DNA of 25,584 nucleotides from a virus: the IMG/VR virus record IMGVR_UViG_3300027608_000139, positions 1 through 25,584 of that record; one strand, 5' to 3'. The first letter of the stretch is position 1. The number at the start of each line of letters is the position of its first letter. Below the pieces are notes generated by a model. It did no database searches. It was not told the origin of the DNA and worked only from the letters and a program-made list of their open reading frames with translations. Of this stretch, positions 2,835 to 20,932 are shown in pieces. The translations under genes and the position numbers were made by a program.

Positions 2835-3377
2835 TTAAATTCTACTGTAAAATATATGATTACCTATTTTCGTTACAACCTTTTGTTTATTCCAGCCAGG
2901 ATTTACATAAACTGCATGGTAATACAATGCGTTTGTTTCTGCTATTTTATCATGTAAAACTGAAACTGTCAATGCTCTTTTTGCAATTAAATGAGATTCT
3001 TCCCATCTATACCGATCATGAATGTGTACCATTTCTTTGACCATACAAGTCCATGAAAATTGACACACGGTTCTTAAATTTTGATCCGTTGTTTTCTGAT
3101 AAACAACTGAACATATATTTCGTGGAAAAATGCCACTATTAACACGATTCATTGTGACCTGTGCTACGGCTAATTTGCCTTCATAAGATTCACCAGCAGA
3201 TTCATAATAAATATTTTTAGCAAGGCATTCAATTTGTTTTAGATAATCTGCCGATACTTGTTTCTGTGTTGCATTTGTAATAAACTCTCTCGATAGAGTT
3301 GGTGCTGTATATACTATTGTTAATACTGCTAATACTACTGCTAATGTGTTAAACTTCTGTGTGTTAAATTTAAACAT
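2835..3377 (-). CDS. Membrane-anchored SleB-type cell wall hydrolase (candidate endolysin)
   Basis: A 180-residue protein with one N-terminal hydrophobic helix (residues 11-27, TLAVVLAVLTIVYTAPT) followed by a SleB/CwlJ-type (Hydrolase_2) domain. The hallmark CLAKNIYYESAGES carries the catalytic Glu59, followed by GKLAVAQVTMNRV and CQFSW, all typical of this family. These enzymes cut peptidoglycan (amidase or lytic transglycosylase activity, depending on member). The N-terminal helix could be an uncleaved signal anchor, as in signal-arrest-release endolysins, or a signal peptide. It lies just upstream of gp33 with 3 nt between them. A lysis role is likely but a virion-associated role cannot be excluded. 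Confidence 0.82.
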   Translation of the reverse strand: MFKFNTQKFNTLAVVLAVLTIVYTAPTLSREFITNATQKQVSADYLKQIECLAKNIYYESAGESYEGKLAVAQVTMNRVNSGIFPRNICSVVYQKTTDQNLRTVCQFSWTCMVKEMVHIHDRYRWEESHLIAKRALTVSVLHDKIAETNALYYHAVYVNPGWNKQKVVTKIGNHIFYSRI

Positions 3378-3397
3378 CTTTCTTCCTTATTGATTGC

Positions 3398-3419
3398 GGC
3401 GGCCAAACATCTGACCGCC
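3398..3419 (-). other. GC-rich hairpin between two genes
   Basis: An 8-bp stem (GGCGGTCA / TGGCCGCC on the minus strand, one G-T pair) with a 6-nt loop lies between the stop at 3431 and the hydrolase start at 3377. No T-run follows, so it is not a canonical terminator. It may be a processing site or mRNA-stability element. The surrounding minus strand also contains a 7-codon ATG frame (MFGRRNQ) ending just before the hydrolase ribosome-binding site. Confidence 0.5.
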
Positions 3420-3430
3420 TTGGTCTCCAA

Positions 3431-3709
3431 TTACGAATTTGTTTTCGATTTTATTTTAACTTCAGGTTGTGGAGTGGTTTGAGAAACGAATTGATTGAGA
3501 GCTTCCGCTTTCTTTACAATTTCATCTTCTGTGGGGAATGCCGGTAAGGCGGGGTAGTCAGGTGATGTTGTACCAGCAATTTTAGCTGCATCGACCTGTG
3601 TATGCCATTGCTGTTGTAGAGCATCACGTTTTGTGTGATAGTCATCAGTTAACATATCTTTGGCCATTTTTAAGAGTTCTAGCCGAATCTCATAAGGTGT
3701 CATACTCAT
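3431..3709 (-). CDS. Conserved small phage protein, function unknown
   Basis: A 92-residue protein starting MSMTPYEIRLELLKMAKDML, with a Shine-Dalgarno GGAG 7 nt upstream of the ATG. The first 50 residues are predicted helical and charged, followed by a Pro-rich stretch (TTSPDYPALPAFPTEDE) and a short helix. The opening segment resembles small proteins I recall from marine T4-like phages, but no function is known to me. It is the first gene downstream of the tmRNA, about 67 nt from its predicted 3' edge, and is followed by the hairpin and the hydrolase gene. Confidence 0.8.
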   Translation of the reverse strand: MSMTPYEIRLELLKMAKDMLTDDYHTKRDALQQQWHTQVDAAKIAGTTSPDYPALPAFPTEDEIVKKAEALNQFVSQTTPQPEVKIKSKTNS

Positions 3710-3768
3710 TTACTTCTCCTTGTGTGTGTTTATGTGTATTACCAGCGGTTTGTGTGATGCTGGTGATT

Positions 3769-3776
3769 TATTTATC
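3769..3776 (-). promoter_or_regulatory. Possible late promoter (GATAAATA)
   Basis: GATAAATA on the minus strand, one base off the T4 late element TATAAATA, lies 60 nt upstream of the 92-residue gene and just downstream of the last tmRNA hairpin. It would allow the hydrolase and gp33 genes to be expressed late independently of tmRNA. The sequence is AT-rich, so chance occurrence is possible. Confidence 0.35.
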
Positions 3777-3820
3777 CAGGTGATTCTGTTGCTAAGTTCA
3801 CCTGGCGAAACTCCGCTTAC

Positions 3821-3853
3821 CTATTAGGCAGCAAGTGCATACTTATCGTTTGC
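3821..3853 (-). other. tmRNA tag reading frame, ANDKYALAA followed by two stops
   Basis: Reading the minus strand from the GCA resume codon gives GCA AAC GAT AAG TAT GCA CTT GCT GCC TAA TAG, encoding ANDKYALAA. The E. coli encoded tag is ANDENYALAA, so this one is a residue shorter but keeps the AND start and the ALAA end recognised by ClpXP and ClpAP. The double stop also matches. Confidence 0.95.
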
Positions 3854-3940
3854 GTTTAATTTAATTAGTGATTACGCCTTCTCTGGCGATTCTCCATTGT
3901 TCTAATTATTGCCATGTCGATTCTAAAACACCCCCATCAG

Positions 3941-3995
3941 AAGTATATTGCCACTTTTGTGTTTGCTACCGAAAACTCGGTTCGTCAATATACTT
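3941..3995 (-). repeat. Inverted repeat bounding the tmRNA intervening segment
   Basis: A perfect 10-bp inverted repeat, AAGTATATTG at 3941-3950 against CAATATACTT at 3986-3995, frames the segment between the CCA end of the acceptor piece and the GGGGG start of the coding piece. Inside is a small hairpin (CCGA-GTTT-TCGG on the minus strand, 3980-3969). The stem would hold the precursor ends together for processing by RNase P and 3' trimming enzymes. Confidence 0.85.
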
Positions 3996-4056
3996 TTGGT
4001 GGAGGTGGTGGGAATCGCACCCACGTCCACAACAACTTTCAAACAACTTCTACGAA

Positions 4057-4167
4057 TTAGTTTAATACAAAAAGTATTGTTAATACACCTACAGCAAATG
4101 CACAGGCGCCCATGTAGAAAGCAAAACTTCTTACTTTATATTCTTTTACACAATCTTTGTTAGGCAT
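4057..4167 (-). CDS. Small membrane protein, 36 residues
   Basis: A 36-residue protein starting MPNKDCVKEYKVRSF and ending in one hydrophobic helix (residues 15-35, AFYMGACAFAVGVLTILFVL). The ATG overlaps the stop of the upstream gene in a TAATG junction, and a GAAAGGA Shine-Dalgarno precedes it. Positive charges before the helix suggest an N-in orientation. Its TAA stop lies inside the first bases of the tmRNA acceptor piece, so the two must come from the same or overlapping transcripts. Function unknown. Confidence 0.7.
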   Translation of the reverse strand: MPNKDCVKEYKVRSFAFYMGACAFAVGVLTILFVLN

Positions 4168-4292
4168 TACAGTATCCTTTCTAGTAACCAAATAACAAAA
4201 AGAAAACTTAAACCACCAGCCAAAAATTTTAAAGCCCCGTACTGTCTTTCGTTCTGCTCGGGAGTGCAGAGTTTTTTCCAATATTTGTTCAT
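4167..4292 (-). CDS. Small membrane protein, 41 residues
   Basis: A 41-residue protein (MNKYWKKLCTPEQNERQYG, then a hydrophobic stretch GALKFLAGGLSFLFVIWLL, then ERIL). It has one predicted membrane helix near the C-terminus. An AGGA site precedes the ATG, and the stop overlaps the next start by one base (TAATG), so the two small membrane genes are translationally coupled. It is the first gene after the promoter at 4301-4329. No family recognised. Confidence 0.7.
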   Translation of the reverse strand: MNKYWKKLCTPEQNERQYGALKFLAGGLSFLFVIWLLERIL

Positions 4293-4300
4293 AGTGTCCT

Positions 4301-4329
4301 ATTATAAGTGTTTATACTTATATAGGCAA
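4301..4329 (-). promoter_or_regulatory. Sigma70-like promoter with a palindrome, driving small genes and tmRNA
   Basis: On the minus strand, TTGCCT (4329-4324), 17 bp, TATAAT (4306-4301). The spacer holds most of a palindrome, TATAAGT-N6-ACTTATA (4303-4322), whose position over the core promoter suggests a repressor site. It is the nearest upstream promoter for the two small membrane genes and the tmRNA. Confidence 0.65.
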
Positions 4330-4338
4330 CCAGCTTAA

Positions 4339-4998
4339 TTAATATTTACCACTTTTCTCATAATATGAAATGGCATTGACTAGGCCTGTGATATGGTCCT
4401 CGGTCTTTTGTTTGAATACGATAGGACTCGAATCCTCAACGGCCATGACGATAACCAAATCATGGATAGGTTGACCAATCAACTCCTCATACATCAAGGC
4501 GTAGGCAGATGTTTGCCAGAAGTAATCTTCAATGTCCTCATGGCTCTTAATTTTTTTGGATGTTTTAAAATCAATTACCGAAAGCACACCATCGAACTCA
4601 GCAATACAATCCACTCGGCCTGCCATCTTTAATTGTGTGGACCATAATGCTTGTTCTTGGTAATGAATATTGTTAATACGATTTAAATGCGGTTTGATTG
4701 ATAAAAACATTTCATGTGCATCGGGCATAATATTACCTAATGATTCATTGTTTAAATATCGTTCACACAATGTATGAACATTTGTACCACGAGAAGTTGC
4801 TTTTTTGGTAATGGCATTGGCAACATCTTCACCCACTTTGTTGCGCCATGCCTGAAAAATATGTTTCTTTTGAGCACCAATGACTGTGGTGACCGATGGT
4901 AATTTTGTACCATCAGGTAGTTTATAAAACCGTTTACCATCAGGAAATGTTTCTGATGGTAGGTCTTGTAATACTTTTGGTGGGCAGTAATTAAACAT
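4339..4998 (-). CDS. PD-(D/E)XK (RecB/Cas4-like) exonuclease
   Basis: A 219-residue nuclease-like protein. The metal-binding core is visible as GRVDCIAEFDGVLSVIDFKT, with Asp130, then Asp143 and Lys145 of the D-x-K motif, followed by a QTSAYALMYEE helix (about 162-172) typical of RecB-family motif III. An upstream SVTTVIG segment and RGTNVHTLCERYL (about 71-83) complete the fold seen in phage exonucleases of this type. The start chosen is MFNYCPP because its ATG overlaps the upstream stop (TAATG) and has AGGA upstream; an in-frame ATG 21 nt earlier is possible. Likely a DNA repair, recombination or host-DNA degradation role. Confidence 0.82.
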   Translation of the reverse strand: MFNYCPPKVLQDLPSETFPDGKRFYKLPDGTKLPSVTTVIGAQKKHIFQAWRNKVGEDVANAITKKATSRGTNVHTLCERYLNNESLGNIMPDAHEMFLSIKPHLNRINNIHYQEQALWSTQLKMAGRVDCIAEFDGVLSVIDFKTSKKIKSHEDIEDYFWQTSAYALMYEELIGQPIHDLVIVMAVEDSSPIVFKQKTEDHITGLVNAISYYEKSGKY

Positions 4999-5138
4999 TA
5001 CCATTTTCCTATAGGGCATTTTACAAAAGGTAAATTTACTTTAATTGGCATATAACAATGGCATTGTGTGCATATTTTTATTTTAACTTTATAATTCTCA
5101 CAAGTATTGCATATGTCTAATTTTGTATTTGCATTCAT
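4998..5138 (-). CDS. Mini zinc-binding protein, 46 residues
   Basis: A 46-residue Cys-rich protein. It has CNTC at 10-13, CTQCHC at 23-28 and Cys41 in a terminal KCPIGKW. The pattern CxxCxC ... hydrophobic ... CPxGKW recurs in small phage proteins I have seen, usually annotated hypothetical, and looks like a compact zinc or metal site. It sits directly downstream of the Asp-hydroxylase-like gene (1 nt between) and its stop overlaps the nuclease start, so it is coupled to that gene. Function unknown. Confidence 0.78.
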   Translation of the reverse strand: MNANTKLDICNTCENYKVKIKICTQCHCYMPIKVNLPFVKCPIGKW

Positions 5139-5139
5139 T

Positions 5140-5922
5140 TTACGTTACGTTATAGTTGGTTACATATTTCTCTTTAATAGCTTCAAAGAAGTCAATATCT
5201 TCTTGTGTTAGCTCCGCTTCTTCTATATCTTGCCTAAATTTTCTGGTGAAATCTTCTAACTGTTGAAATTCACCTTCATACTTAAAAAACTTTGTTATTT
5301 TTTTAGTATCGTAAGCATCCATTATAATATGATATCTAGGCTCATCGGAATCATTTCTAATTTGATGCCACAAATTCACCCAAACAATGTATGCTGATCC
5401 ATCGGCCGGCATATGTAAATTTTTTCCTTGACATATATGAACACACTTTTTGTTTGTCCATAATGGTATGTGTATTCTGGCCATATAATCTGTTGTTTCA
5501 GCATCTTTGTGCACCAAGCTCTTACAATGAGGCTGTAAACAAGTTATTCTTACTCGCCTTGGTTCAAATCCCAAATCTTTCAATTTATCTACAACCTTTT
5601 TAATTTCTCCGACACAAGCTTGAGTTGGTCTATCGTGCTCCAAACTGTGAGCAATATTAAAATGTTTGTACGACTTCATAATCAATTCTCTTGTCGGTAG
5701 AAAATTTTCTAATTTTAATCCATGTTCATGCTGAACAACTTCCCAACCATCTTTCCAATCACCACGCCTACTCAAAATACTCCAACCACCAAACCCATGA
5801 TAATTTTGTGTTTCAAATTCTTCACCTTGAACAACTTGATCACCTAGAGGAAAAACACTTTCTTCTACTTCTTTTCTTAATTTTTCAATATCAAATTGAA
5901 TATCTAATTTTTCATACCACAT
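5140..5922 (-). CDS. Aspartyl/asparaginyl beta-hydroxylase-like 2OG-Fe(II) oxygenase
   Basis: A 260-residue protein with the jelly-roll oxygenase signature. His138 and Asp140 (in VHKDAET) and distal His186 (NLWHQIRN) form the iron facial triad. Arg197 in EPRYHIIMD is placed to bind 2-oxoglutarate. The combination of HxD, IHIPLWTN and a WVNLWHQIRNDSDEPRYHI segment matches the aspartyl/asparaginyl hydroxylase branch, which hydroxylates protein side chains, but other phage members have unknown substrates. It is the last oxygenase of four, its start overlapping the previous gene by 11 nt. A protein substrate, perhaps a virion protein from the same operon, is inference. Confidence 0.85.
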   Translation of the reverse strand: MWYEKLDIQFDIEKLRKEVEESVFPLGDQVVQGEEFETQNYHGFGGWSILSRRGDWKDGWEVVQHEHGLKLENFLPTRELIMKSYKHFNIAHSLEHDRPTQACVGEIKKVVDKLKDLGFEPRRVRITCLQPHCKSLVHKDAETTDYMARIHIPLWTNKKCVHICQGKNLHMPADGSAYIVWVNLWHQIRNDSDEPRYHIIMDAYDTKKITKFFKYEGEFQQLEDFTRKFRQDIEEAELTQEDIDFFEAIKEKYVTNYNVT

Positions 5923-6547
5923 TTTTTTGTTTTTCTTTCATTTCTATAAAATTGTTCAATAGATTAGTTGAAAATGTTTGCATATCGGTAGACAATGAAA
6001 TTCTCATATTTTTAGATTTATTAACATCTACAGAATGTAAAACATATGATGGAAAAAATACAAGTTTTCCTGGTTTCGGTATTATTTTTTTAAATTTAGC
6101 TCCATTAACATTTTTATAAACCTCTTTGTCCCAATCTACACCACCACGGGGATCAATTAATAATAGGTCACCACAATCATCATCTGTTTGTATATAGTAT
6201 GTTGCTGTTATTTTACTACCTCCATGATCATGTATTGCCATGGATTGTCCAGGTAAACTATAGTTAACCCAACCTCTTGTGTGATGAAATTCATATTCAT
6301 CATAATTTTTTGCAACATAATCATAAGTAAGTTCTGTCACCATTTTAATTATATAATCATTTAATGATTTTACATAAGGTGTATTCATCACCCATATATT
6401 AGAATCTTTGATATTTTTAATTTTTTCATCTGTGTAAAAATATTTCAATTCACTTAATAAATTATCATTAAATTTTTCATCAAAATCTGTTTGTATTTCC
6501 CACACCGGTGTCACCCACCAATCATTACGAATTATATTCATAGACAT
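5912..6547 (-). CDS. 2OG-Fe(II) oxygenase, TIGR02466-like
   Basis: A 211-residue protein. The proximal iron motif is HDHGGSK (His106 to His108), followed by TATYYIQ, then LLLIDPRG, and a distal His171 in FPSYVLHSV, with Arg182 in MRISLSTD for 2-oxoglutarate. The N-terminus WVTPVWEIQT resembles the start of the putative 2OG-Fe(II) oxygenase family (TIGR02466), common in marine T4-like phages. It is clearly paralogous to the 241-residue protein two genes upstream: both share W-x-PVW/PIW-E-x-QT, YYIQ, KLVFxPSYVLHxV and RISLSTD blocks. Substrate unknown. Confidence 0.86.
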   Translation of the reverse strand: MSMNIIRNDWWVTPVWEIQTDFDEKFNDNLLSELKYFYTDEKIKNIKDSNIWVMNTPYVKSLNDYIIKMVTELTYDYVAKNYDEYEFHHTRGWVNYSLPGQSMAIHDHGGSKITATYYIQTDDDCGDLLLIDPRGGVDWDKEVYKNVNGAKFKKIIPKPGKLVFFPSYVLHSVDVNKSKNMRISLSTDMQTFSTNLLNNFIEMKEKQKNVV

Positions 6548-7077
6548 CCAGTTTCTTTTAACATCTCACACACCGATTCATAATTATGTTTTCTTGTGCC
6601 TAAAGTTACGGCTTTTCTAAAAGGTTCTTCTTTATCCGATTCGACACTATGAATTTTCTTAACATTTAATACCCAAACTTCCATTGGTTGTGCCACGAAA
6701 CTACCAACTTCTTTTAATTGCTCTTTTTTGTATATGAATCCATTTGTTTGATTTTTTATTTGAAATATCTGCAAATCATCTACCAAAGGTTCATAATATA
6801 TCGTTTTACAGTTATCAGTTTCAATGTAAAAATTAATTGTGGTTAATATATCACTATCTGTATGTGGTGGTATATTTCGATTGATGGTCATAACAGTTAA
6901 ATAAAAATCTTCCCAATATTTTTTAGGTAAAATCTTATACATTATTTCGGGTTCAGGTGACCATATCTTTTTATAATCTATACCTTTATTATCAACACCC
7001 GTAAACGTATTCAACCCCTGTGTAACGGCATATATGGGTTTAGAAAACTCATAATTTAACTTTGTGAACATTTCCAT
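6538..7077 (-). CDS. Divergent 2OG-Fe(II) oxygenase-like protein
   Basis: A 179-residue protein with a plausible oxygenase core. His72 and Asp74 occur in IPPHTDSD, followed by TTINFYIET, a distal His143 in VKKIHSV, and Arg154 ten residues later in EPFRKAVTLG. This HxD...H...R order and spacing match 2OG-Fe(II) enzymes, though the rest is not close to its neighbours. The stop and start overlaps with both neighbours (10 and 22 nt) show co-translation. M3 (MFTKLNYEF) is an alternative start. Call rests on motif geometry, so it is less certain than the flanking oxygenases. Confidence 0.68.
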   Translation of the reverse strand: MEMFTKLNYEFSKPIYAVTQGLNTFTGVDNKGIDYKKIWSPEPEIMYKILPKKYWEDFYLTVMTINRNIPPHTDSDILTTINFYIETDNCKTIYYEPLVDDLQIFQIKNQTNGFIYKKEQLKEVGSFVAQPMEVWVLNVKKIHSVESDKEEPFRKAVTLGTRKHNYESVCEMLKETGCL

Positions 7078-7781
7078 TCTTTAATTTTTTTCATTCGACT
7101 GGCCCAACTTTTTAATATTACAGTATTATTGGTGTTTTTGTCAACCACCTTTCGTAAATCGGTAGATAAAGATATACGTAAATCATTTGATTTATTCTCC
7201 GTTACACCATGAAGAACATATGATGGTGTAAAGACCAATTTACCTTCAATAGGTTTGATTCTTCGTTCTTTCACTACAGGCGTACCGGTTAAAGTGGTGT
7301 TTTTCCAATCAATTGCGTTGGAACTGTCAAATAGTACCAACTCTCCACATCCTTCTGGTGCTTGTATGTAATATGTGGCCGCAATAGCGGATTCTGTATG
7401 GCCATGTACTTCTAAACCTTCTCCCGGTTCATGCACATTAACCCAGCCAAAGAAGTGCTCACAACCTTTAAGGTTTAACATTCTGATTTCTGGAATTTGT
7501 TGGGTTATTGTTTTTGTAACAATATCAATAATTTCTTGTTTGATAATGTTTAGATTGGGCTTGTCATAATCCCATATGCTGTCTTTTGGTTTTTTATCTT
7601 GGCCAGTGGCGATGCCATAACCTATACTATAAATTTCGTCTAGTAGTTTTTTATTGAATTCTGCATTAAATTTTGTTTGAACTTCCCATATTGGAGATTT
7701 CCAAAATAAGTTTTGCGCATTTTGATACCAGTGAAACTTTTCACGGTCATTCAGTTGTTCTATTTGATTTCCACTCATCAT
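7056..7781 (-). CDS. 2OG-Fe(II) oxygenase, TIGR02466-like (second paralogue)
   Basis: A 241-residue paralogue of the 211-residue oxygenase. It has His126 and His128 in EVHGHTESA, then AATYYIQ, LVLFDSS, distal His191 in FTPSYVLHGV and Arg202 in LRISLSTD. In this protein the proximal motif is HGH, so a carboxylate ligand in the usual HxD position is missing, as in the paralogue, where HDH offers an Asp between the two histidines. The start overlaps the previous gene by 35 nt with no clear ribosome-binding site. Translation may depend on coupling, and the true start is uncertain. Confidence 0.82.
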   Translation of the reverse strand: MMSGNQIEQLNDREKFHWYQNAQNLFWKSPIWEVQTKFNAEFNKKLLDEIYSIGYGIATGQDKKPKDSIWDYDKPNLNIIKQEIIDIVTKTITQQIPEIRMLNLKGCEHFFGWVNVHEPGEGLEVHGHTESAIAATYYIQAPEGCGELVLFDSSNAIDWKNTTLTGTPVVKERRIKPIEGKLVFTPSYVLHGVTENKSNDLRISLSTDLRKVVDKNTNNTVILKSWASRMKKIKEWKCSQS

Positions 7782-8073
7782 ATGCCATAATCAAAGGTTG
7801 TGCTTGCTCACGATTAATTCGAACTTCTGTACTCATTTCCGAAGCTGTGTTTGCTGTCTGCCATGGTGTGCCTTTGATGTGGTCCAATATCGGGTGATTG
7901 CCAGCATTTAATAATTCGGACAACACATTCACATGAGTTGTTAACATGGTAAAGACGTTTGCACGTTGTTCTTCAGGTAAATTTAGTATTGCATTGAAAA
8001 AAATATTGTTGAAGTAGTAATCAACATACTCATGCAATAAATCTCTCTCGATGACGATTTCATTTTCATTCAT
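7747..8073 (-). CDS. Unknown small protein between the tail-type protein and the oxygenases
   Basis: A 108-residue protein, acidic and mostly helical in appearance, beginning MNENEIVIERDLLHEYVDYYF. There is no recognisable enzymatic motif, signal peptide or membrane helix. The start overlaps the Cys-rich gene by 8 nt (ATGAATGA) and its end overlaps the first oxygenase, so it belongs to the same late operon. A chaperone or adaptor for the neighbouring Cys-rich protein is conceivable but nothing in the sequence shows it. Confidence 0.75.
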   Translation of the reverse strand: MNENEIVIERDLLHEYVDYYFNNIFFNAILNLPEEQRANVFTMLTTHVNVLSELLNAGNHPILDHIKGTPWQTANTASEMSTEVRINREQAQPLIMAYDEWKSNRTTE

Positions 8074-9013
8074 TGTATTTTTTCCTTATGAATAATTTAT
8101 TATTAAATAATTTAACTATTTTAGAATAAATTTCTGCTGAGTAATATGTTCCCGCAAATGTAATCCAAATAAAATATACGGTCAATAAACCAACTGGTTT
8201 ATTTTTATTTGGTAACTTACCTACCAAACGGCTAATTGGTCGACCAACACGCATCAATATACGGCCAATATCATTATCTCTATTCACAATATTCATAATA
8301 TAAGCCATATGTTGCGACCAAGGAGTTGCTATACGGTGAGCCCACTTAATAAATTTTTGTTTTTCAGCTTTTTTACGTTCATCTTTGGACATCCAAAGCA
8401 TAAAGTCCGGAGATTTGCCTTCCATGCCATCAACAATAACTTGAGCCCAACGAATATAACCAGCATAAACTTCTGGATCATTTTCTCTCAACCAATTACC
8501 ATATTTTTGGTCAGCATAAAAAATATCATGGGGCATCATACCGAGTTGATATAATTTATGACAAATAATTTTTGAACAATTACAAGCTTGAGCATAACAT
8601 TGAAAACTTGTACAATTATATGTTGGTGGCGGTTGTTGATTACAATTTCCTGTTTGTAACCATGATTGGCTATCACAATTTGCACAATTAATAGCTCCAC
8701 AATTAGCACACACATGGCAATTTTGACTTTGATCACCGCATCCACAATTACAATTTGATGGGTCAACTACAGGACAATTTCCTGAAGCGCAGTTTTCACA
8801 GCAATTATTAATTCCCGTGCCGTTGCAATTTCCTGCAGTATTTTTTTGAAAATAACTTAGGCCATAAAATCCAGCCATATTAGGAGTACCTGGTCGTATA
8901 GACGGCAACACTAAATTGTTTAAAAAATTTAAATCACTAGAATATGTTGATGATTGACCAATTTCTTGATTAATTTGCGATACGGATATTGGTCCAGATG
9001 ATGGTAATGTCAT
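8066..9013 (-). CDS. Tail-type protein with a 19-cysteine central region
   Basis: A 315-residue protein in three parts. Residues 1-55 (LPSSGPISVSQINQE ... LPSIRPGTPNMAGFYGLSYF) follow the LPxSGPISxSxI...FYG pattern common at the start of phage tail or fibre-associated proteins. Residues 63-151 contain 19 cysteines (63, 71, 72, 75, 80, 88, 90, 92, 99, 102, 105, 110, 113, 124, 134, 139, 144, 146, 151), many in NC/CN pairs. Residues 155-270 are a compact, Trp-rich helical region (LGMMPHDIFYADQKYGNWL, GYIRWAQVIVDGM, WAHRIATPWSQHMAY). A hydrophobic helix (about 274-291) and a basic end follow. A late promoter TATAAATA lies 28 nt upstream. Likely virion-associated; the cysteine region may be disulfide-bonded, metal-binding or enzymatically modified. 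Confidence 0.82.
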   Translation of the reverse strand: MTLPSSGPISVSQINQEIGQSSTYSSDLNFLNNLVLPSIRPGTPNMAGFYGLSYFQKNTAGNCNGTGINNCCENCASGNCPVVDPSNCNCGCGDQSQNCHVCANCGAINCANCDSQSWLQTGNCNQQPPPTYNCTSFQCYAQACNCSKIICHKLYQLGMMPHDIFYADQKYGNWLRENDPEVYAGYIRWAQVIVDGMEGKSPDFMLWMSKDERKKAEKQKFIKWAHRIATPWSQHMAYIMNIVNRDNDIGRILMRVGRPISRLVGKLPNKNKPVGLLTVYFIWITFAGTYYSAEIYSKIVKLFNNKLFIRKKYNE

Positions 9014-9040
9014 TTTTACGTCCTAATCTTTATTATTCAG

Positions 9041-9048
9041 TATTTATA
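9041..9048 (-). promoter_or_regulatory. T4-type late promoter (TATAAATA)
   Basis: An exact TATAAATA lies on the minus strand, overlapping the stop codon of the radical-SAM gene (9046-9044). With a start about 6 nt downstream, transcription would begin near 9035, 22 nt before the Cys-rich ATG. An AGGA site lies in between. It would place the Cys-rich protein, the 108-residue protein and the four oxygenases in one late operon, separating them from the radical-SAM gene upstream. Confidence 0.8.
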
Positions 9049-10495
9049 TTGTTTCTACTTTGGATTTTCCGTAAATTTCGACACCTTCAATCACACCAAT
9101 CTTCTCACTAATTATTTTGATAGGTATAATTTTCTTTTTCAAATCTTCCTTATGTTCGTAAATTGTACCAAAAATATCTTGCCTTTCGAGTGGTAGACCA
9201 TCACCTTTTATGAGTGTTGGTATATAACCTGTTATATCCTGTATAGCTAAAACAAAAAATGGTATGTTATCCGAATATGAATTTGCACAAGATATGTCCC
9301 AAAATTTTTCATCCAAAAACATACAGGCACCCTTACAAATATGTAGTACAGGACAACCAGAACATTCTTTACGGTTCGACCAATGTGTTGATGATTTAAT
9401 TGATACATTATCATAATCTTCTAATGTACCTCCGTGATGCGACTCGCCATTTTTTGACATTTCAAGAGAACTTACGTTTTGGCACGTCATTACATTACCA
9501 CGCAAATCTACAGCTAAAGCTTGTTCTTCATCCATGCCACATTTTTGACCTAAAAAATCCGATTTTCGGTGAGCAAGAACACTTTTGGTAAATTGAAACG
9601 TTTTTTCTTTTGGAATAGTGAATCCAATTTTGCCGCCTGTGGAAAATATGTCAGCAAAAGCCGTTCTTCGATATTCAAAATGGTCTTTTTTTGTTAGTAA
9701 AGAATTTGAAATTCCTTCTTCATCGTAAGCATCTACGATACCTCCTTCACCTAGTGTTACAAATTCATCACCAGTTAAATTCACAAACCATTCATAAACT
9801 TCTTTACGACTTCTATTTTTTGCGTTCATCATAGGATTAAAACTTATTACTTTACCCAAACGTTTCATCATTCTATAAAAACCCAATATTCTTTCTTTTT
9901 GTTCAGGATCGTCAAACGGATCTGGCCCACGAACTGATTGACCAGGTCCATCATGTGAAATGGCCACATCAAAATCATACATCATCAACCAATCAATAAT
10001 ATCATCTGTAAGAATAGATCCGTTTGTAATAACAGAAAATCTTGGTTTTCTTTCCCAATTCTCAAATTTTTCTGCCAACAATTCTGCTAGTGGTTTCATT
10101 GTTTTCCAATAAACAAATGGTTCACCACCCCAAAATTCTATTTTCAATCCTTTACTTTCATCAAATTCTAAAACTTCTAATTTTTTCATAAAAGCATCAA
10201 TGTCTTTTTTAGATGTTTCAGGCATACGTTCAACAAATTTTTGTGAGCAATAATCACAAGAATAATTACAACTTAATCCCATTTGAATTTTAAGTGTTGT
10301 GATTAACTTTGATTTCTTTAAAGGATTGTTTTTATTAAATGCTTTATATGGTTTTGTGTATTCTTTAGGAATTTCAATTGGTTGCGGATATTCATATACG
10401 ATACCATTGGCGTCCTTTAAAATATTGCTCATGTTATCATAATAAAATATTTTCTTATCATCTTTTGATTTTTCAGCGTGTATTTCAAATAACAT
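9044..10495 (-). CDS. Radical SAM enzyme with SPASM domain (peptide/protein-modifying type)
   Basis: A 483-residue protein. The radical SAM cluster motif CNYSCDYC gives Cys76, Cys80 and Cys83 (CX3CX2C), followed by the SAM-binding FWGGEP (121-126) and HDGP (181-184). The C-terminal half has a complete seven-cysteine SPASM set: Cys319, then Gly333-X4-Cys338, then Cys378-X2-Cys381-X5-Cys387-X3-Cys391, and Cys403. SPASM enzymes bind extra iron-sulfur clusters and usually modify peptides or proteins, for example anSME sulfatase maturase, PqqE and thioether-forming maturases. The neighbouring Cys-rich protein is the obvious candidate substrate, but this is inference. AGGAAAAATA precedes the ATG. 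The start overlaps the upstream stop by one base. Confidence 0.92.
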   Translation of the reverse strand: MLFEIHAEKSKDDKKIFYYDNMSNILKDANGIVYEYPQPIEIPKEYTKPYKAFNKNNPLKKSKLITTLKIQMGLSCNYSCDYCSQKFVERMPETSKKDIDAFMKKLEVLEFDESKGLKIEFWGGEPFVYWKTMKPLAELLAEKFENWERKPRFSVITNGSILTDDIIDWLMMYDFDVAISHDGPGQSVRGPDPFDDPEQKERILGFYRMMKRLGKVISFNPMMNAKNRSRKEVYEWFVNLTGDEFVTLGEGGIVDAYDEEGISNSLLTKKDHFEYRRTAFADIFSTGGKIGFTIPKEKTFQFTKSVLAHRKSDFLGQKCGMDEEQALAVDLRGNVMTCQNVSSLEMSKNGESHHGGTLEDYDNVSIKSSTHWSNRKECSGCPVLHICKGACMFLDEKFWDISCANSYSDNIPFFVLAIQDITGYIPTLIKGDGLPLERQDIFGTIYEHKEDLKKKIIPIKIISEKIGVIEGVEIYGKSKVETI

Positions 10496-20770: not shown

Positions 20771-20845
20771 TGGTACACGGTAGGAGAATCGAACTCCTCT
20801 TACTGCCGTGAAAGGGCAATGTCCTAACCGATAGACGAACCGTGC
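20771..20845 (-). tRNA. tRNA-Glu (anticodon TTC)
   Basis: A complete 75-nt cloverleaf with encoded CCA. The acceptor stem is GCACGGT/ACCGTGT, with an unusual G1-U72 wobble at its end. The D-arm is GTC..GAC, the anticodon stem TTGCC/GGCAG holds loop CTTTCAC (anticodon at 20812-20810), and the T-arm AGGAG-TTCGATT-CTCCT is canonical. It lies 1 nt after tRNA-Tyr in the same transcript. Confidence 0.93.
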
Positions 20846-20846
20846 A

Positions 20847-20932
20847 TGGTGGGTAAGGATGGATTCGAACCAACTCAGCCTTAGGCAACGGATTTACAGT
20901 CCGCTGTAACTCTCCAACTTTACCGCTTACCC
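20847..20932 (-). tRNA. tRNA-Tyr (anticodon GTA)
   Basis: A complete 86-nt type II tRNA with encoded CCA. The acceptor stem GGGTAAG/CTTACCC is perfect, the anticodon loop reads CTGTAAA (anticodon at 20897-20895), a long variable arm follows as expected for bacterial tRNA-Tyr, and the T-loop TTCGAAT is canonical. It is the first element after the promoter at 20946-20973. Confidence 0.95.

Follow-up and report, generated by a model that had tools for sequence, protein, structure and literature searches.

Trans-translation, in which a tmRNA is charged, delivered by SmpB and EF-Tu and used to tag products for degradation, is an established pathway in its general outline.

According to the published description of the Methylophilales phage Melnitz, the two-piece tmRNA of a T4-like phage is already a published kind. 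Melnitz was reported in 2022 with a two-piece ssrA directly upstream of a transcription-coactivator gene. Of the 133 unique phage tmRNA structures considered in the same report, 53 have the two-piece form, and 50 of these come from marine or aquatic phages; a two-piece tmRNA is also given there for 17 of 47 related contigs (PMC9004378). Additional sequences within tmRNA genes are also on record, with LAGLIDADG homing endonucleases in the group I introns of intron-form tmRNA genes, and with permuted tmRNAs whose intervening sequence harbours a tRNA gene or a repetitive element (PMC11915505).

The DNA analysed here (hereafter the window, 25,584 bases) spans an entire IMG/VR virus contig and, judging from homologues of gp32, gp33 and gp59 in one cluster (phrog_224, phrog_254 and phrog_269), is a fragment of a T4-like phage. 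An initial annotation made from the sequence had proposed a phage-encoded permuted tmRNA in it, and the present analysis confirms, by model scores and sequence landmarks, an intact circularly permuted gene on the minus strand at 4057-3776. The Melnitz gene, compared by description only, is reported with a predicted glutamine riboswitch (PMC9004378), whereas none scores over the cut-off in the window. A further likeness is found in the cultured Pelagibacter phage HTVC008M (KC465899.1), where an unannotated permuted tmRNA (145120-145461) occupies the same slot between the exonuclease and a gp33-like gene and likewise has a T loop with G55 and the same acceptor strands, GGGGGTG/CACCTCC, but a different tag, ANFNEYALAA. 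The window gene also matches, over their full length, the RF04321 and RF01850 models, and is thereby close to bacterial two-piece tmRNAs of the beta type. It is set apart from that bacterial type by a tag of its own and a T loop with G55, and bacterial genes over the RF01850 cut-off score 160-305 bits against 94.7 for the window gene and mostly carry ANDERFALAA-type tags.

The permuted tmRNA gene and its surroundings

The ARAGORN call for a permuted tmRNA covers 4089-3733 and gives the tag ANDKYALAA followed by two stops, and Rfam RF04321 (tmRNA_permuted) aligns to 4057-3824 with 118.8 bits (gathering score 47, E 5e-23). The initial annotation had proposed covariance models as the check on its claim, and the permuted model is well above threshold; RF01850 (beta_tmRNA, 4097-3764, 94.7 bits, cut-off 84) and RF01849 (alpha_tmRNA, 76.2 bits, cut-off 50) passed as well, while RF01851 (cyano_tmRNA, 40.5 bits) stayed below its cut-off of 70. 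Since the beta and the alpha cut-offs were both passed, the model scores do not tell these lineages apart.

On the minus strand the order of the parts is permuted, the CCA at 3999-3997 lying upstream of G1 at 3935. Reading from the 5′ side, the sequence contains a T arm, GTGGG-TGCGATT-CCCAC (T stem 4024-4020/4012-4008, T loop 4019-4013), and the 3′ acceptor strand CACCTCC (4007-4001), the two together occupying 4001-4024 and being supported by covariation in relatives. They are followed by the discriminator A (4000) and the encoded CCA, which form the predicted 3′ end of the acceptor piece (3997-4000). A 61-nt intervening spacer (3936-3996) is expected to be removed; its ends, AAGTATATTG and CAATATACTT, are predicted to pair over 10 bp directly beneath the acceptor stem, with an energy of -30.8 kcal/mol for the fold including the acceptor strands. 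The 5′ acceptor strand GGGGGTG (3929-3935) begins at the predicted 5′ end of the coding piece and forms 7 of 7 pairs with its distant partner, G3-U70 included. Within the coding piece, the tag reading frame ANDKYALAA (3827-3853) ends in the two stop codons TAA TAG (3821-3826); it is one codon shorter, in frame, than the ANDNKYALAA common in relatives and, by its likeness, would be a degradation signal. A terminal hairpin, CCAGGTG...CACCTGG (3776-3805), is kept with changed arms in relatives, as read by eye, and was used together with the model to set the predicted ends of the gene. All of the parts read by the initial annotation, i.e., a T arm and CCA upstream of the 5′ GGGGG end, a 7-bp acceptor stem with G3-U70 between distant pieces, the tag with two stops, and piece ends at 3997 and 3935, coincide with the ARAGORN call or with landmarks in the minus-strand sequence.

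The surrounding genes, all on the minus strand and assigned by PHROG where a match exists, bear out the earlier placement of the tmRNA in a T4-like cluster. The order is an exonuclease (4339-5019, phrog_298, E 1.6e-74), which is the upstream flank of the slot, two small ORFs, the tmRNA, a 92-aa ORF (3431-3709), an endolysin-like cell-wall hydrolase (2835-3377, phrog_938, E 8.4e-22), a gp33-like late transcription regulator (2610-2831, phrog_254, E 5.2e-19), a gp59-like DNA helicase loader (2001-2606, phrog_269, E 6.5e-58) and then a gp32-like single-strand DNA binding protein (545-1429, phrog_224, E 4.4e-109). The small upstream ORFs encode 41 aa (4167-4292) and 36 aa (4057-4167, with an ATG at 4167 read from the sequence), the latter ending at the tmRNA and lying within a tool-listed 74-aa TTG frame; the 41-aa and 92-aa ORFs and the 74-aa frame are without PHROG match. 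In a tblastn search, gp32 matched 2417 phage records, the top-ranked match in the phage collection being a cyanophage with 55% identity across 99% of the protein.

Immediately past the terminal hairpin, an ATAAATA motif is present at 3775-3769 (minus strand), which, in a comparison without control, resembles T4-type late promoters. From this point beyond the tmRNA, late transcription of the hydrolase, gp33, gp59 and gp32 genes could be initiated. Elsewhere in the window, adjacent tRNA-Glu and tRNA-Tyr genes lie at 20771-20932 on the minus strand, at a distance of about 17 kb from the tmRNA gene. A 315-aa ORF, part of which is very rich in cysteine, is found beside a radical SAM protein (phrog_1802; 8066-10495, minus strand), with two 2OG-Fe(II) oxygenase genes nearby (5912-6547 and 7056-7781), and its product is possibly a phage protein modified after translation.

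A conserved slot in T4-like aquatic phages

Viral contigs were scanned with the gp59 and exonuclease proteins, and the best 80 of 192 and the best 80 of 172 relatives were taken, so that near relatives are over-represented; within these sets permuted tmRNAs are recovered by ARAGORN from 42 of 80 (gp59 scan) and 53 of 80 (exonuclease scan). After pooling, 156 loci were available, HTVC008M and Marine virus AG-345-L05 included, and 114 of them have the exonuclease together with gp33 or gp59. ARAGORN finds a tmRNA in 81 of these flanked loci, in every case between the exonuclease and gp33/gp59, and Rfam adds 15 among the other 33, again all between the flanking genes, which gives 96 of 114 among the fetched close relatives. 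Some of the 114 loci are one contig fetched twice; counted as distinct intervals, 67 of 82 carry a tmRNA, or 68 with the locus L251, recovered by our own finder. Genes of this sort may be under-counted, since the L251 tmRNA is missed by both ARAGORN and RF04321. A tmRNA was detected by none of ARAGORN, Rfam and our own finder in 14 of the 82 distinct exonuclease-gp33 intervals, hence the phage tmRNA is dispensable. On a tree of 78 exonucleases, the pattern of presence and absence needs 9 changes, at least 5 of them by starred branches, these counts being slightly too high as L251 was wrongly included among the 12 proteins marked without tmRNA.

These results show that, in T4-like aquatic phages, members of the published two-piece class lie in a conserved slot next to the late-transcription genes. 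The view of the initial annotation that a permuted tmRNA in a T4-like operon is unusual therefore does not hold, given Melnitz, HTVC008M and the flanked loci with the same slot.

Several further observations were made in the contigs examined. A six-base T loop, TTCGAT, replaces the seven-base loop in 2 of 48 distinct genes, L241 among them, and was also seen by eye in L303 and L366, both missed by ARAGORN. An abiF RNA (RF03085) scores over its cut-off within a few kb of the tmRNA in L294 (6673-6710), L303 (4884-4920) and L362 (11087-11124), three related phage contigs, L294 being the same contig as L358. Outside these relatives, ARAGORN calls unannotated permuted tmRNAs in the Alcaligenes phage vB_Af_QDWS595 (OK149171.2, Schitoviridae), with the tag ANDNVYAAAA, and in the Xanthomonas phage Rb1 (PQ569993.1), with the tag ANDDNFRPALRLAA, the latter call being overlapped by a second, standard-form call. 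The T loop with G55 is present in 65 of 85 parsed syntenic phage loci, and the strict pattern matched 0 bacterial stretches; its use as a phage-specific mark was dropped after a looser pattern matched at least 120 stretches, since many of the 80 that were listed have titles naming Caulobacterales.

The origin of the slot tmRNAs was approached by a quick tree of the tRNA-like and tag segments (120 rows, 162 columns) in which 18 of 116 inner branches are starred. Cores were required to have CCACCA and a tag ending in AA, so that 6 of the 15 distinct sequences labelled beta and 14 of the 27 labelled alpha were retained, and 10 of 33 kept cores of the Caulobacterales-rich pattern set and 40 of 77 other viral cores were taken. 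The labels alpha and beta derive from model scores and the group searched, the alpha-labelled L550 and L584 having come from searches centred on a beta genome (G274). The window belongs to a starred set of 38 rows, made up of 36 slot phages, one other viral contig and the window itself, in the same part of the tree as the bacterial beta sequences. Unlike it, HTVC008M groups with marine viral and alphaproteobacterial sequences (division support 91, not starred), and ten same-slot phages fall in a starred 25-row set with six beta-labelled bacterial sequences. Since the slot phages are split between sets, tmRNAs of different lineages seem to share one phage slot, as far as a weakly resolved tree can indicate. 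The assignment of hosts from this tree was set aside, and the tree itself is given loose weight only.

Conservation and probable function

Forty-eight distinct cores could be parsed, 38 from ARAGORN and 10 from Rfam only (6 intervals were unparsed). Pair 3-70 is G-U in all 48, although G-U was not demanded by the search, the cores themselves coming from tools with their own preferences. Pairs G1-C72, G2-C71 and G7-C66 are invariant, and pairs 4-69 (GC in 43, CG in 5), 5-68 and 6-67 covary. Both sides change in the T-stem pairs 49-65 to 52-62 among 41 distinct genes, and the helix closing the spacer has a mean of 9.95 bp in 41 distinct relatives as compared to 5.54 in shuffles. The tag frame is present in 48 of 48 parsed cores, 42 of them ending in ALAA with the leucine encoded by five different codons, and the other 6 in RLAA, KIAA, KLAA or LMAA; the final AA was required by the tag search and so adds no evidence of its own.

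Taken together, the sequence and its predicted structure, the conservation and covariation, and the slot argue, with a probability of roughly 85%, for a functional phage ssrA of permuted form, whose product would be processed into two pieces, charged with alanine and used with host SmpB in trans-translation to add ANDKYALAA. In the proposed mechanism, a single transcript would fold with its spacer ends paired under the acceptor stem, and host tRNA-processing enzymes would cut at the encoded CCA (3997) and at G1 (3935). The acceptor and coding pieces would stay joined via the acceptor stem and a long helix between the halves, and the host alanyl-tRNA synthetase would charge the RNA via G3-U70. 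Host SmpB and EF-Tu would then carry it to ribosomes stalled on broken mRNAs, where translation would finish on the tag and mark the product for degradation. The benefit to the phage may be that ribosomes are kept free while mRNAs are cut during infection. Searches for SmpB gave no match at E 1 in 8 of 8 tmRNA-bearing phage records of 104-174 kb, which may be incomplete, the control being positive in 12 of 14 known genomes. Hence, judging from these records, ordinary trans-translation with SmpB supplied by the host is the most likely mode of action of the phage tmRNA, its compatibility with host SmpB and proteases being assumed.

The lack of SmpB matches would also suit an inhibitor or decoy that titrates SmpB or occupies ribosomes and so blunts host trans-translation, for which there is a precedent: the phage DS6A sequence is described as consisting of little beyond the tRNA-like domain, and inhibition of tmRNA has been reported for a similar molecule (PMC4131195, PMC11915505). 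However, a decoy would not need a tag, and the tag frame is kept in every parsed core, mostly as ALAA with synonymous changes, which makes such a role unlikely. Still less probable is a gene captured from a host, now decaying or neutral, which linkage within the cluster retains. The 14 intervals without tmRNA and the repeated changes on the exonuclease tree (9, at least 5 by starred branches, again slightly too high owing to L251) would fit such a gene, but it would not be expected to show compensatory changes around an invariant G3-U70, half-to-half pairing retained in each type, and the same slot in viral contigs and in HTVC008M.

An element whose main role is to control the downstream 92-aa ORF, hydrolase, gp33, gp59 and gp32, as a structured leader or processing site, could account for the fixed position before gp33 and for the ATAAATA motif, which follows the tag within 170 nt in 29 of 48 parsed cores; the Melnitz authors likewise propose riboswitch control at their locus (PMC9004378). 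This reading leaves G3-U70, the CCA and the tag unexplained, and the absence of an over-threshold glutamine riboswitch in the window extends to E 1 at 3300-4500; it is thus about as improbable as decay. In favour of a working RNA stand the Rfam and ARAGORN calls, G3-U70 with covariation, the pairing of the halves, the synonymous leucine codons of the tag, the in-frame loss of one codon and the slot.

Module exchange and the intervening spacer

From the comparison of their sequences, the tmRNA gene of these relatives looks like a recombination mosaic under pairing constraint. Phages with identical exonucleases carry different tmRNAs. For example, L279 and L334 have the same sequence throughout the tRNA-like part and the spacer, and nearly the same after the tag block, but differ in a block of about 30 nt containing most of the tag (ANDESYALAA and ANDNKYALAA), while L276 and L277 have the tag and 3′ part in common and differ in the tRNA-like part and the middle. 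Typing of modules was possible for 50 of the 67 distinct intervals, with clustering thresholds set by the analyst. The T-arm half and the 5′ half are of matching type in all 50 (36 A-A and 14 B-B). The middle module, by contrast, is found with either type of halves: A-A halves occur with middle A in 10 and with B in 26, and B-B halves with A in 11 and with B in 3, corresponding to 5, 21, 8 and 1 of 35 distinct module sets. By contig names, each combination occurs in at least three metagenomes, the rarest being represented by three near-identical genes. Segment similarity is correlated at 0.76 between the two halves, compared to 0.37 between T arm and middle and 0.02 between tag and middle. In 26 of 29 distinct pairs (3 of the 29 distinct halves, of another length, were excluded), 97% of helix positions are paired in a gene's own halves and 66% and 54% when halves are exchanged between types, the positions having been predicted from the same sequences that were later counted. 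The better pairing of own halves accounts for their co-inheritance. Finer mixtures within a half also occur, with pairing kept.

The spacer measures 40-101 nt in 45 of 48 distinct spacers of window-type genes. In L252, a spacer of 175 nt is nearly filled by a 50-aa ORF, and in L346, of another type, a spacer of 171 nt by a 52-aa ORF; both have AAAGG before the start, and these unrelated ORFs gave no convincing family match. A permuted tmRNA of another viral contig (L223, ~621-900, tag ANDNFAPVDFALAA) has a 207-nt spacer filled by a 62-aa ORF. ORF lengths were compared with 2000 dinucleotide shuffles each for 11 spacers longer than 110 nt, i.e., 10 of the 12 distinct long spacers plus L241, the bacterial contigs L443 and L456 being left out. 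The observed length was rarely reached in L251 (0 shuffles), L346 (0), L252 (2), L223 (4) and L241 (11), more often in L064 (56) and L149 (95), and without any signal in L118 (1989), L037 (1152), L185 (1777) and L367 (1285).

The largest insert is found in L251, in which a 517-nt spacer contains a 152-aa ORF preceded by AGGAG. Residues 2-57 of its product match the homing endonuclease family phrog_655 (E 5.2e-14), and the Pfam HNH model gives 17.7 bits, under its cut-off of 21.4. Around this insert, the tmRNA halves pair 7 of 7 with G3-U70, followed by the tag ANDNKFALAA. Five contigs (L629, L647, L650, L653 and L655) have the acceptor and spacer ends of L251 around a 40-nt spacer with no insert. 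The T-arm region of L251 is 98.7% identical over 78-79 nt to these empty sites, and its downstream part is 98.8% identical to L252; a cassette therefore seems, on sequence grounds, to have moved. Longer aligned parts of L251 and the empty-site contigs are 73-85% identical. As the HNH-type gene lies in the tmRNA spacer in a single contig, an assembly join may be involved; this is less favoured since the acceptor halves match and the changed sequence is common to the five empty-site contigs. Relatives of the endonuclease are encoded at 36 loci, L251's own contig and 35 others, and in 0 of these 35 is the relative inside a tmRNA spacer. In L611 (2615-3480), a permuted tmRNA with the tag ANDEAFLMAA has a 159-aa relative starting 36 bp away on the other strand, and in L610 a 168-aa relative lies on the opposite strand about 560 bp from one.

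L251, L252 and L346 resemble described cases in that foreign sequence is present in a removable part of a tmRNA gene, with the difference that the endonucleases described there sit in group I introns while the HNH-type gene of L251 sits in the spacer of a permuted form (PMC11915505). A literature search by titles and abstract starts, outside preprints and most subscription journals, retrieved neither a published endonuclease gene in a permuted tmRNA spacer nor published tag-module recombination in phage tmRNAs. It can be tentatively proposed, as one possibility among less specific ones, that the split-tmRNA locus is a modular recombination spot driven by homing. Being cut from the RNA, the spacer would offer protein genes a safe place to land, and among them would be the gene of an HNH homing-type endonuclease. 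Gene conversion by this enzyme would move the paired tRNA halves and swap modules for the tag and the pseudoknot from phage to phage, renewing the tag and preserving the ribosome-rescue core.

The window gene is a well-supported addition to the published class of phage two-piece tmRNAs, and the mosaic at the level of the family, together with the spacer cassette, is worth a specialist's look. Natural swaps of the tag, the pseudoknot and the paired halves offer a testable view of which tmRNA parts have to fit together, and a homing-type endonuclease gene housed in the spacer would make this part of an RNA gene a mobile-element site of a new kind.
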